NCBI GenBank assembly: GCA_023249635.1 | Contig: JAHFCH010000006.1 | Span: 1-41,239 of the forward strand | Length of the DNA stretch: 41,239 nucleotides | Reading direction: 5' to 3' | Source of the DNA: Fibrobacterota bacterium | Lineage (GTDB): Bacteria; Fibrobacterota; Fibrobacteria; UBA11236 | Shown here: positions 7,503 to 11,270 of the stretch, in pieces | How positions within the stretch are numbered: the stretch's first letter is position 1 | Layout: every line of letters starts with the position of its first letter | Made by a program: the position numbers and the translations under genes | Notes under the pieces: model-generated | The model's database searches: none | The model's input: only the letters and a program-made list of their open reading frames with translations | Told to the model about the DNA's origin: nothing

Positions 7503-8348
7503 TTACAAAGCGGAAACGTGCTGCTTATACCTGTCCGTATAAGCCGATGTCGCGCCCAGATCGGCGAGTTGTTTGAGCTTCGGATCGTCGTTCACGATGG
7601 CAGTCACCGCCTTCACGCGGTTGCTGTTGCCCGGATGGTCGGAAAGCCATTCGGGTACCCCCATGCTTTGTGCCCGTTCGAAATAAGTCGCGATGCCCAT
7701 GGGATTCCGGTTGGTCCGCCCCAGCGCCAAGGTCCCGCCCTTGTCCGCCTCGCTCTCATCGCTGCGCGAAAACTTCAGGCCCGCGAGTTGGAAGGCCACT
7801 CCCGCCGCCATCTGCGATACCTGTCCCGCATTGGTGGCGCCCAACACGCCTTCCAAGGCAAGCCCCAACGCCGTGCTCTTGGCCAATTGCCTCCGATAAT
7901 GATGGTGCGTCACATGCGTGATCTCATGCCCCAGAACGCCGATCAATTCCGATTCGTTCTGCATCTTCTTGAGGATACCGGTGTAGATATACACGTAGCC
8001 CCCCGGCACCGCGAAGGCGTTCTCCACGTCCTTGTCGATCAAGGTATAGGTGAAGTCGTACCCGGGCTTCTCGCTGGCGGGCAAGCTGGCGACAATCTCC
8101 TTGGCCAGCCCGATGATGTAATTCTGCAACTCGGCCTGCGCCGCGTTCTTGGGCACGTACAGCGGCATCTCCCGCATCGCCGTATCGTTCGTCGTCAGCG
8201 TCTTGTTGAACTCGGCCCCGAGCTTGGCCTCTTCCTGATCGGAAACCAGCACCTCCCCGACCCCGCCGAAGAAACCGGCGCAGGAGACGAGGAGAGGAAG
8301 AGCGACGGCAACGGGGAGCAAATGGCGGCGGAGATTTGAAATCGGCAT
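7503..8348 (-). CDS. M48-family zinc metalloprotease, outer-membrane lipoprotein (BepA/LoiP-like), copy 1
   Basis: A 281-residue protein with a lipoprotein signal peptide (lipobox LVSC, Cys23). HEITH at 141-145 and ESEAD at 198-202 supply the zinc ligands of M48 peptidases. The preceding NAFAVPGGYVYIYTGIL is the conserved strand of the family. Relatives such as BepA and LoiP work in periplasmic quality control of outer-membrane proteins. ATG 8348 has AAGGGA about 6 nt upstream. A paralogue with the same plan lies at 10416-11270. The two share the sequence around HEI(T/A)HVT.HHYR and the C-terminal GR/T-NP-GIA pattern. No TPR domain follows, so it is the short form. Confidence 0.9.
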   Translation of the reverse strand: MPISNLRRHLLPVAVALPLLVSCAGFFGGVGEVLVSDQEEAKLGAEFNKTLTTNDTAMREMPLYVPKNAAQAELQNYIIGLAKEIVASLPASEKPGYDFTYTLIDKDVENAFAVPGGYVYIYTGILKKMQNESELIGVLGHEITHVTHHHYRRQLAKSTALGLALEGVLGATNAGQVSQMAAGVAFQLAGLKFSRSDESEADKGGTLALGRTNRNPMGIATYFERAQSMGVPEWLSDHPGNSNRVKAVTAIVNDDPKLKQLADLGATSAYTDRYKQHVSAL

Positions 8349-8469: not shown

Positions 8470-9168
8470 TTATCCTCCCTGAAACAGACCATTCAAAAGC
8501 GGCGCCTTATCCACCGTGATCCGCATTATCGCTTGCCGTTCCTTTTTAGTCAGGCGGGACAACGCCCATAAAAGTCCCGTTTTCCCTTCCGCGCTCTCCA
8601 TCAGGAACCGCGTCATCTGCTGCGCCGTGTCCAAGTCCTTTTCCTTTTTCGCCGGCTTCTTTCGTAGCTCATGGACGATGAACTTGAACAGAGTATAAAG
8701 TTCCGGCCGAGGTACACGCACGGCGATCCCCTGATAACTCAGGGTCACAAGTTCGTCCTCCTGATAGTTCAGATGTCGAAGTCCCTGTACGGTAATCTTG
8801 AGGGACTTGACGGATTGCACCTGCTCCCCACCGTTCCCTCGCAGCGGAGACAAGAACTTAACCACGAAGCCTTCCCGATTGTATTTCGCATAACCGGTTG
8901 CAAAGGCGATCTCTTCCAAGAATCCCACGTTGGCAAAGGCTTTGGGCACATCCGCTTTCTGCCTAGGCTTGTTGGGCCGAAGCACCAGGAGATCCATGTC
9001 CGTGGTCCTGACAGCCGGAATAAGATCGTTGCCGCCGAAGTTGTGCCGATACAGCAAGAGGCACCAGCTCCCGATAAGGACGAGTTCTTTCAAGGCCCCG
9101 GCTTCCTCCAAGGCCTTGAGCACCAACAGGAACACGTCGTTATACGGTTCACTTCGCTCGGCCGGCAT
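8470..9168 (-). CDS. Nucleotidyltransferase-fold protein (GSU2403/NTP_transf_8-like)
   Basis: A 232-residue cytoplasmic protein. LVLIGSWCLLLYRHNFGG gives the Gly-Ser of a polymerase-beta-type nucleotidyltransferase core, and RTTDMDLLV (D57, D59) gives the paired acidic residues expected to bind metal. This matches GSU2403-like or AbiEii-like proteins more than KNTase or MNT. C-terminal helices are basic (HELRKKPAKKEKDLDTAQQM). It overlaps the small upstream gene by 20 nt and must be co-expressed with it. Base composition looks AT-richer than neighbouring genes, consistent with acquisition. The role is not known; a toxin-like nucleotidyl- or phosphotransferase of an antitoxin pair, or a defence component, is inferred. 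Confidence 0.7.
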   Translation of the reverse strand: MPAERSEPYNDVFLLVLKALEEAGALKELVLIGSWCLLLYRHNFGGNDLIPAVRTTDMDLLVLRPNKPRQKADVPKAFANVGFLEEIAFATGYAKYNREGFVVKFLSPLRGNGGEQVQSVKSLKITVQGLRHLNYQEDELVTLSYQGIAVRVPRPELYTLFKFIVHELRKKPAKKEKDLDTAQQMTRFLMESAEGKTGLLWALSRLTKKERQAIMRITVDKAPLLNGLFQGG

Positions 9169-9469
9169 TCTTTAGCGTCCTTTCGAGGATACGCAGATCC
9201 TTCCGCATCTGGCGGATACTGGTAACTAGGGCGTTACGTTCCTTTACTTGAAGCATAATCTCTTGGTATTTCCGCGAAGGGATCGGCGCCACATATTCAA
9301 AGCGCACTTTGCCACCCACCCGGTAAGCGAGGTACGCGTACTCCCGCAGGCCTCGTTTCTTCACCCACAGGGCCCCCCGCGGCAACTTTTCCACTTTCGC
9401 GGCGTAGAGCAGAATCGCCCCATGTAAGCGGTCCCGCTCCTCTTCAAAAATCCCAAGTAGAACGCTCAT
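9149..9469 (-). CDS. Small basic protein, partner of the nucleotidyltransferase-fold protein (DUF6788-like, antitoxin or DNA-binding candidate)
   Basis: A 106-residue, Lys/Arg-rich protein. The N-terminal half has the pattern KLPRGALWVKKRGLREYAYL then YRVGGKVRFEYVA. This resembles the 'basic strand, YxYLxYR.gGKv...yv' module found in DUF6788-type proteins and near the N-termini of some transposases. The C-terminal 45 residues (IMLQVKERNALVTSIRQMRK, then LRILERTLKN) are predicted as a coiled coil. ATG 9469 lies about 14 nt from the predicted transcription start and shares its RBS region with a half-site of the palindrome at 9475-9514. It is first in the operon and overlaps the nucleotidyltransferase gene by 20 nt, the usual position for an autoregulating antitoxin. 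Function is inferred from layout only. Confidence 0.6.
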   Translation of the reverse strand: MSVLLGIFEEERDRLHGAILLYAAKVEKLPRGALWVKKRGLREYAYLAYRVGGKVRFEYVAPIPSRKYQEIMLQVKERNALVTSIRQMRKDLRILERTLKNAGRAK

Positions 9470-9474
9470 AGGCT

Positions 9475-9514
9475 GTACCTAACAATAAGATTATATCATC
9501 ATTCCGTTAGGTAC
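9475..9514 (-). promoter_or_regulatory. Palindromic operator enclosing a TATAAT -10 box, promoter of the two-gene cassette
   Basis: GTACCTAAC (9475-9483) and its exact reverse complement GTTAGGTAC (9506-9514) are separated by 22 nt. On the minus strand a perfect TATAAT reads 9495-9490, inside the spacer. TTATGT is a weak -35 about 17 nt upstream and overlaps the distal half-site region. Transcription would start near 9483, leaving a leader of about 14 nt before ATG 9469. The proximal half-site also covers the likely Shine-Dalgarno (AGGT). A protein bound here would block both polymerase and ribosome loading. Confidence 0.75.
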
Positions 9515-9756
9515 ATAAGACATAGATGTGCATTTTTGGAGACTTTTCAAAAATAGACACGCGCTCTCATTGCTTACCCGCGGACTCGACAACCCCGGAG
9601 CTGGAAACCTCTACCCGGGGGATCTATAAATTATACCTAACATTTATAATTTATTTATAATTTGTTAGGTATTTAACGGCGTGTTTACCTAATTTTATGG
9701 GATCTTATAAAGATATGCGGTTAGAAAAGCCTTAGAGAGCTGGGTGGCCTGTAAAC
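9515..9756. other. AT-rich non-coding stretch between operator 1 and the HAD gene
   Basis: No convincing gene is present; the longest ATG frame near 9697 is only 8 codons. The stretch is clearly AT-rich from 9620 to 9720 and holds the second palindrome (9633-9672) plus a degenerate half-site TTACCTAAT at 9685-9693. It has the look of the leading edge of an acquired cassette, but I found no flanking direct repeats or integrase gene. Confidence 0.5.
9633..9672. promoter_or_regulatory. Second palindrome with the same half-sites and the same 22-nt spacing
   Basis: ATACCTAAC (9633-9641) and its exact reverse complement GTTAGGTAT (9664-9672) are 22 nt apart, exactly as in the palindrome at 9475-9514. 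The spacer is pure A/T except for none to very few other bases, and contains TATAAT on the plus strand at 9645-9650 and 9656-9661. A minus-strand TATAAT overlaps the left half-site (9635-9630). It probably binds the same regulator and may hold a second, upstream promoter or an auxiliary operator for looping. Confidence 0.65.
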
Positions 9757-10419
9757 TTAGGAAGGTATCAAGCAGGGGGCCAGATTTCCTAATCCATCGA
9801 CCTTCACGGATAACCCTTCCGCCCGAAACGGATCGTCCCCGTTATCCACCCCCGCGAACGGCATCCCCACCGCCAGCGCGGCTTCCTGATCCTTGATGGC
9901 GTCCCCGACGTAAAGGCACTCCGCCGCGTGCAACCCGAATTCCCGCACCATGGCGTGCAAATGCTCCGCCTTGCCCGGCGGCGATCCGCATACCCGCCGG
10001 AAATATTTCCCCAGGTCGAAATGCGCGATGGTCCTATCGATCACCTCTTGCGGTGTACCCGTAACGATGGCGCAGCCGATACCCCGGGCCTTCGCATCCT
10101 CAAGGAATCCGGACGCGCCTTCCTTCAGGCGCATCTTGCCGCGGCTGTCTTCATCATGGGCATTGAAGCGGGCCAGGGCTTCGGCGCAGAGTTCCGCGGT
10201 CATGGCTTTACCGGCGAGAGCCGCGTACATGAGGGGGACCGTTTTCAAGCGCGAGAGGCCCGCGACTTCCAATTGGGATTTGCGGATGGCGTCGCGCGCG
10301 AAGCCCATGCCCGCGAAGGCATGGCAATAGGACTCCAGCTTCAGCTCCATCGAATCCATGATCACGCCGTCGAAATCGAGGAAGACGAACGCCGGAGGCG
10401 CGGGGACGGGCAGCGTCAC
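9757..10419 (-). CDS. HAD-superfamily phosphatase (phosphoglycolate phosphatase-like)
   Basis: A 220-residue HAD hydrolase. Motif I is FLDFDGVIMDS, with nucleophile D15 and acid/base D17. Motif II is IVTGTPQEVI, a Lys follows in GSPPGKAEHL, and motif IV is YVGDAIKDQEAA. The helical insert after motif I (about residues 20-90) is the C1 cap of the Gph/beta-phosphoglucomutase group, which dephosphorylates small metabolites; the substrate cannot be read. The start is GTG 10419, whose GTGA overlaps the stop of the M48 gene upstream, so they are translationally coupled. Confidence 0.85.
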   Translation of the reverse strand: MTLPVPAPPAFVFLDFDGVIMDSMELKLESYCHAFAGMGFARDAIRKSQLEVAGLSRLKTVPLMYAALAGKAMTAELCAEALARFNAHDEDSRGKMRLKEGASGFLEDAKARGIGCAIVTGTPQEVIDRTIAHFDLGKYFRRVCGSPPGKAEHLHAMVREFGLHAAECLYVGDAIKDQEAALAVGMPFAGVDNGDDPFRAEGLSVKVDGLGNLAPCLIPS

Positions 10420-11270
10420 TTCTTGAGGACCGCCGTGAATTGCTGGAAGCGCGAGGCGAAGTTCGTGTTCGCGCTGTCGTTGGCCAGCGCGGTGAGGGAA
10501 GTCGATTTGGCGACTTCGGCTTGCACGTCGGCTACGCGGCTTTCCGAGGCGGGATGCGTCGAGAGCATGGCGGCCAGGCCATCCTTGGGCATGCGCCCGA
10601 AGAACTTGGCGATGCCGAGCGGGTTACGGCCGGTGGAGCCGGAGTATTTGGTGCCGTAAAAATCGGCTTCTGCTTCGTTGTCACGGGAAACCTTGAGGCC
10701 GGCCAACCCGTAGAAGGTCTGCCCCACCATCTGCGCCAGCTTGCCGGAATCATTGCCCAGCAGCACTTGCAAGAGCAGCGACATCGCGCCGTCCTTCGCC
10801 ATGGCATCGCGGTAATGGTGGTTGGTGACGTGGGCGATCTCGTGGCCCATCACCCCGGCCAATTCCGATTCGTCCTTCATGTTCTTGATGATGCCGGTGT
10901 AGATGTACACGTAGCCGCCCGGCACCGCAAAGGCATTGATCACGTTCTTGTCGATGAGGGTGAAGTGGAACGCATAGTCGGGGCGATCGTCGGCAGGCAC
11001 GGCCTTGAGCAGCTCCTGGCCCAGGTCCTGCACGTATTTCTGCAGAGCCAGGCTGTCCGCGCTCTTGGCGGCGAAAACGGGGTATTCGCCTTTGGCCTTG
11101 ATGGAATCGGAGTTGGTGAGCGTGGAGTCGAACGACTTGCCCAGCTTTTCCTCGTCGGCCTCGGATACGAACAGCGCCCCGGTGGTGCCGAAGAAGTCGC
11201 AGCCGCAGCGGGACAGCATTACGGCGGCAAAGAGGAGCGGTAAGAGGGTTTTGGCTTTAGGCAAACGCAT
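10416..11270 (-). CDS. M48-family zinc metalloprotease, probable lipoprotein, copy 2
   Basis: A 284-residue paralogue of the protein at 7503-8348. HEIAH at 143-147 and EAEAD at 199-203 are the zinc ligands, and NAFAVPGGYVYIYTGII is shared almost exactly. The N-terminus is a signal peptide with cysteines at 22 and 24; the lipobox LSRC is imperfect, so lipidation is likely but less certain than in copy 1. ATG 11270 is preceded by GGAGG at a good distance. The HAD phosphatase start overlaps its stop by 4 nt. A membrane-protein gene ends 10 nt before its start. Expected role: periplasmic proteolysis or outer-membrane assembly quality control. Confidence 0.9.
   Translation of the reverse strand: MRLPKAKTLLPLLFAAVMLSRCGCDFFGTTGALFVSEADEEKLGKSFDSTLTNSDSIKAKGEYPVFAAKSADSLALQKYVQDLGQELLKAVPADDRPDYAFHFTLIDKNVINAFAVPGGYVYIYTGIIKNMKDESELAGVMGHEIAHVTNHHYRDAMAKDGAMSLLLQVLLGNDSGKLAQMVGQTFYGLAGLKVSRDNEAEADFYGTKYSGSTGRNPLGIAKFFGRMPKDGLAAMLSTHPASESRVADVQAEVAKSTSLTALANDSANTNFASRFQQFTAVLKK

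Follow-up and report, generated by a model that had tools for sequence, protein, structure and literature searches.

Two inverted repeats upstream of a two-gene cassette in a Fibrobacterota bacterium belong to an operator architecture that is conserved upstream of relatives of its small first gene in four or more bacterial phyla. The repeats are likely to be the operators of an autoregulated, toxin-antitoxin-like cassette, an explanation for which there are no binding, repression or toxicity data. Gene 1, the small first gene, is very probably the operator-binding autorepressor, with both its binding and its repression inferred; gene 2 encodes a nucleotidyltransferase.

Operators and promoter of the cassette

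The window, i.e., the whole stretch of 41,239 nucleotides analyzed here, carries both genes on the minus strand. Gene 1 (9149..9469, 106 aa), a probable operator-binding autorepressor and antitoxin-like partner, is supported by its open reading frame, a predicted structure and a residue-base correspondence. Gene 2 (8470..9168, 232 aa), a probable toxin-like partner with a PF12281 (NTP_transf_8) nucleotidyltransferase domain, overlaps gene 1 by 20 bases including the stop. The proximal operator, to which no strand is assigned, lies at 9475..9514 as an exact GTACCTAAC-N22-GTTAGGTAC repeat: its half-sites, 9475-9483 and 9506-9514, are 9-bp arms with 22 nt between them and centres 31 bp apart. The distal operator, likewise without strand, lies at 9633..9672 (half-sites 9633-9641 and 9664-9672), is an exact ATACCTAAC-N22-GTTAGGTAT repeat with the same spacing, and stands 158 bp upstream of the proximal one. 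The pattern TACCTAAC-N22-GTTAGGTA occurs twice in the window against 0.00 expected from shuffles, and in the 6.75-Mb genome it is found only at these two sites, both upstream of gene 1, with no match to a reversed control pattern across the same 6.75 Mb.

An extended −10 element, TATAAT (TGATATAAT), is located on the minus strand at 9490..9495, inside the proximal operator spacer, with an exact hexamer. A good −35 element is absent (best, 2/6), and a transcription start near 9483 is inferred from the −10 position. The inner arm of the proximal operator lies within ~15 nt of the gene 1 ATG (9469), and the only AGG near this ATG, a weak ribosome-binding site, comes from that arm. In the Smithella-type loci and some others, a TTGACT-N17-TATAAT promoter is interleaved with the arms, the left arm falling between the −35 and −10 elements and the right arm 10 bp beyond the −10; the overlap of operator and promoter is shown by computation. 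The promoter scan was ambiguous in the remaining loci because the AT-rich spacer gives many matches. At the distal operator, a second minus-strand TATAAT (9630-9635) overlaps the edge and two plus-strand TATAAT hexamers lie inside; a second promoter beneath it is possible.

These results bear on an initial annotation made from the sequence alone. Its claim of two inverted repeats with identical half-sites and 22-nt spacing held, both being exact, and so did its claim of a perfect minus-strand TATAAT within the nearer repeat with the inner arm over the ribosome-binding site. The degenerate fifth half-site that it placed at 9685-9693 exists as letters (TACCTAAT at 9686-9693) but failed on significance: about seven matches with one mismatch or fewer are expected by chance in the window, and no partner at operator spacing was seen by eye. 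It was therefore dropped.

Conservation of the operator and its correspondence with gene 1

Relatives of gene 1 were found in 27 of 168 Fibrobacterota genomes, in records of Chitinispirillaceae, Chitinivibrionales and Fibrobacter, and, by a genome search with a four-sequence set, also in records named Latescibacterota, Spirochaetaceae (Spirochaetota), Deltaproteobacteria and Smithella (Smithella-type Desulfobacterota). Sampled genomes from the phyla of two of the non-Fibrobacterota groups yielded more relatives; the phylum of the Latescibacterota genome, one spirochaete order and one small class added no loci. Viral contigs searched with the four-sequence set gave no match, nor did phages, and plasmids gave one partial match only.

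A stretch no more than 170 bp upstream of gene 1 was scored as an operator when it held two half-sites that were complementary at 8 or more of 10 bases, included three or more G/C pairs, had an inner ACA on one side and were separated by a spacer of 19-22. By this measure, 10-bp half-sites ending in ACA lie just upstream of gene 1 in 52 of 58 non-redundant loci, against 0.185 loci expected by chance from sequences that were Markov-sampled to match the dinucleotide usage of these upstream stretches. The initial annotation would have been refuted by homologous cassettes lacking the repeats; with repeats at the same geometry in those 52 loci, it was not. Among the six loci that fail, three (L006, L028, L029) carry weaker versions and two (L098, L101) carry TTGTACAA-type repeats, as judged by eye. 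Spacer length is almost constant, being 21 in 24 loci, 20 in 23, 22 in three and 19 in two, and the loop sequence is variable. Half-site sequences vary between lineages; the TACCTAACA of the window is found again in the distant relatives L005, L010, L031 and L040. Of 64 loci, 28 have a second operator copy, usually at a distance of 42-101 bp (two values of 30 bp are cross-pairings of neighbouring copies), and the 158 bp of the window is the longest found; with these spacings, the fixed helical phasing that was looked for between the two operators was not seen. No such operator was found in a distant gene-1-like group (L143, L154-L166) from one spirochaete order and one genome of a Desulfobacterota class. 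Five loci of this group were inspected, and in four (L143, L155, L161 and L163) a galactokinase-like gene comes next.

Four half-site positions track four residues of the gene 1 sheet, a correspondence shown by computation with rules chosen after most of the data had been seen. With half-site bases counted from 1 to 10 in the direction of the spacer, G occupies position 3 in 20 of the 21 loci that have Arg39 and in 0 of the 41 that lack it, and C occupies position 5 in all 42 loci with Lys37 and in 4 of the 22 that lack it. At position 6, a base other than C is found in 24 of the 26 loci that have Phe or Tyr57, and C in 37 of the 38 remaining; at position 7, A is found in 24 of the 28 loci that have Ala or Ser48, and another base in 35 of the 36 remaining. 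The sole exception to the Arg39 rule is the window itself, which has Arg39 with A3 and fits the other three rules. The residues were chosen after column scores on the first 52 loci, so that Fisher values are not independent tests, and three controls were applied. First, gene 1 was compared with the nucleotidyltransferase, whose columns have had the same history, in the 34 loci with a full copy of the latter: at all four positions, the best gene 1 column beats all 203 variable nucleotidyltransferase columns (in order, 0.39/0.26, 0.48/0.34, 0.35/0.33 and 0.31/0.29), by a small margin at positions 6 and 7. Second, greedy independent contrasts over the four traits gave 17 concordant, no discordant and six unchanged; the tree was built without the sheet, contrasts are shared between traits, and well-supported branches carry only two or three contrasts per trait. 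Third, among loci read after the rule was written, L138, L139, L146 and L147-L152 fit all four positions, while L153 misses one and L144 two. L138, L139 and L147-L153 are similar to loci already in the first set, and L146 is the most independent of them.

The two gene products

For the product of gene 1, Pfam, NCBIfam and PADLOC gave nothing above noise; DUF6788 (PF20586) matched one of 25 relatives at E 0.072 and did not match the protein of the window. AlphaFold2 with 13 sequences (mean pLDDT 91) predicts a helix (2-28), three strands (33-39, 42-51 and 54-63) and a second helix (66-104). From the strand register, not from coordinates, residues 37, 39, 48 and 57 are inferred to share one sheet face with Y46, R50, Y44 and Y/F59, and these are highly conserved: Y46 and R50 in 64/64 loci, Y44 in 62/64 and Y/F59 in 63/64. 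The top three PDB fold matches are the arm-type domains of tyrosine integrases, 3ju0, 3rmp and 3jtz, a weak likeness of fold only (E 0.07-0.08, TM 0.28-0.34). Integrase arm-type domains use a three-stranded sheet on DNA. Gene 1 differs from them in two extra long helices and in the absence of a recombinase domain. Sequence comparison with solved structures gave no convincing relative for either protein, the matches of gene 1 being designed coiled-coil proteins. No HEPN match was found when a HEPN partner was considered, and the predicted helix, three strands and helix of gene 1 are not all-helical.

A gene-1-like N-terminal region also occurs in longer chains. Single chains of 335-341 aa (L069, L071, L075 and L083) join it to a PF12281 nucleotidyltransferase, whereas in the window the two are separate genes with a conserved operator; the L069 and L071 fusions have upstream operator-like repeats of the type TACCCCACAA-N17-TTGTGGGGTA. 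The region is found as well on a Fic protein (L106), an AAA_14 ATPase (L108, with L105 and L107 similar) and an HNH endonuclease (L079).

Gene 2 matches PF12281 at 78.3 bits, against a curated cut-off of 26.3. In the literature searched, no function is on record for proteins of this family, and searching from the side of gene 2, PF12281 matches in Fibrobacterota are mostly at gene-1 loci. Its predicted fold is best matched by a fungal nucleotidyltransferase-like protein, followed by MenT3/TglT, ANT(2'') and MenT1; a viral structure library gave no convincing fold match. The GSW and DxD elements of the active site are present, and the conserved Glu before Phe-Leu, which we take to be the third metal-binding acid as inferred from the fold, is Lys (VVKFL) in the window. 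Of 40 aligned copies, 38 have Glu at this site, one has Asp and only that of the window has Lys. Because Lys stands where relatives are acidic, the nucleotidyltransferase of the window may be enzymatically dead while the operator and gene 1 remain intact, a possibility inferred from sequence.

Among 55 assessable loci, 30 have an intact gene 2, 14 a broken one and 11 none, and the operator is kept in 24 of the 25 loci without an intact nucleotidyltransferase. Survival of the operator after loss of the nucleotidyltransferase is thus shown by computation. The count of broken genes is perhaps inflated by errors in draft genomes, and the loci were found through gene 1, which biases them to those with an intact gene 1. 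As judged by eye, an ORF resembling a PIN domain adjoins gene 1 of L014, which has no nucleotidyltransferase, and the truncated gene 1 of L049.

Proposed mechanism and alternative explanations

In the proposed mechanism, which is inferred throughout, the gene 1 product would read each 10-bp half-site with one face of its three-stranded β-sheet. The long C-terminal helix probably links two sheets into a dimer, which would act as a caliper reaching across some three helical turns along one side of the DNA; the claim that two 39-residue helices could keep the sheets about 100 Å apart is arithmetic, not a model. Protein bound there would mask the −10 element together with the start region and so shut off transcription of both gene 1 and the nucleotidyltransferase, with the distal operator adding occupancy or cooperativity. 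Probably, gene 1 also restrains the nucleotidyltransferase in the manner of an antitoxin. Gene 1 alone suffices to explain conservation of the operator, because the operator outlives loss of the nucleotidyltransferase and its arms co-vary with gene 1 residues; the same conservation, correspondence and retention make it very probably an autorepressor. The initial annotation had proposed an operator spanning three turns and bound by the small first-gene product or its complex; this is supported, the small protein being the very probable binder, with binding and oligomeric state inferred. Added to it here are the spread of the system, a geometry that hardly varies, an operator that does not depend on the nucleotidyltransferase and a recognition code that can be tested.

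That the gene pair is a toxin-antitoxin module is likely, on the basis of layout, decay pattern and fold resemblance only; toxicity of gene 2 and its neutralization are inferred. The case for an antitoxin role is built on asymmetric decay, as seen in draft genomes, and gene 1 may be a repressor only. The alternative that survives best keeps gene 1 as autorepressor and makes the nucleotidyltransferase a non-toxic enzyme under feedback control, without any toxin-antitoxin module. Single-chain fusions of both parts, unusual for a toxin and its antitoxin, and the galactokinase-like gene beside distant gene-1 relatives speak for it; the overlapping layout with the small gene first, the patchy spread, the frequent loss of gene 2 with gene 1 retained and the resemblance of its fold to MenT toxins speak against it, and we consider this alternative possible but less likely than not.

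It is unlikely that the gene-1/nucleotidyltransferase complex, or the nucleotidyltransferase, binds the operator and that gene 1 alone does not do so usefully. The two genes overlap and travel together, and half-site bases show a correlation with some nucleotidyltransferase columns too; among type II modules, furthermore, there are many in which the complex is the best binder. However, the operator is kept in all but one of the loci with a lost or broken nucleotidyltransferase, and gene 1 columns predict the bases better.

RNA hairpins, acting as an attenuator or in translation control, are very unlikely, although no RNA folding was computed: the arms are perfectly complementary and the inner arm lies over the ribosome-binding region, but the −10 element is enclosed by the arms, in the window as in the clearest loci, so that transcripts from that promoter lack the outer arm, and spacer length is near-constant with a varying loop sequence while the bases track gene 1 residues. 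Equally improbable are readings of the repeats as the ends of a mobile element, as sites of recombination or as the target of some unrelated host regulator, for which the patchy distribution, the lower GC of the upstream stretch (0.40 vs. about 0.6) and the weak resemblance of gene 1 to integrase arm domains could be cited, since the genome has two copies only, both upstream of gene 1, and the repeats of relatives lie within 170 bp upstream of gene 1 and change in sequence with it.

The preferred reading, autorepression by gene 1 within a toxin-antitoxin-like cassette, has known parallels. In AbiEi/AbiEii (type IV) and in Rv2827c/Rv2826c of M. tuberculosis, as in the arrangement proposed here, an antitoxin gene precedes a toxin of nucleotidyltransferase fold. 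The AbiE-type antitoxin represses its own promoter via inverted repeats, of which Rv2827c uses two pairs; the AbiEi/Rv2827c repeats are 23 bp each and 3 or 13 bp apart, the toxin belongs to DUF1814 and the antitoxin has two domains (PMC7319586). By contrast, the present cassette has half-sites of ~10 bp spaced 20-21 nt apart, a PF12281 gene 2 and a 106-aa gene 1 of helix-sheet-helix type, and AbiE profiles (DUF1814/AbiEii and AbiEi) gave no Pfam, NCBIfam or PADLOC match in either gene. The cassette thus appears to work like AbiE, with repression inferred from the sequence pattern, and is not a member since the AbiEi and AbiEii profiles fail. As to MenAT, the PDB structures that gene 2 resembles best in fold include MenT3 and MenT1, but identity across the fold match is 9-14% and no Pfam overlap was found; gene 1 had no match to MenA1 or MenA3 in the libraries searched.

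A bolder reading, which we favour by a narrow margin, is that gene 1 founds an undescribed class of antitoxin-repressors, built as helix, three strands and helix and gripping, by the exposed sheet face, two 10-bp half-sites about 30 bp apart; that its code, in which residues 39, 37, 57 and 48 read bases 3, 5, 6 and 7, respectively, has diversified over at least four phyla; and that its domain has been fused to nucleotidyltransferase, Fic, AAA ATPase and HNH partners. Self-repression via inverted repeats is already familiar. Here, however, the probable repressor is one without a curated family or a sequence relative among solved structures, whose many naturally diverged operator/protein pairs, e.g., TTGCCTAACA vs. 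TTACACTACA members, make an unusually legible DNA-recognition code, and whose operator is a DNA signature for locating the cassette in further genomes.

The surroundings of the cassette in the window have a feature of their own. Two lipoprotein-type metalloprotease genes, at 7503-8348 and 10416-11270, look similar (HEITHVTHHH and HEIAHVTNHH), and between them lie the cassette and a HAD-family gene (9757-10419); possibly, the pair is a duplication around an insertion site.
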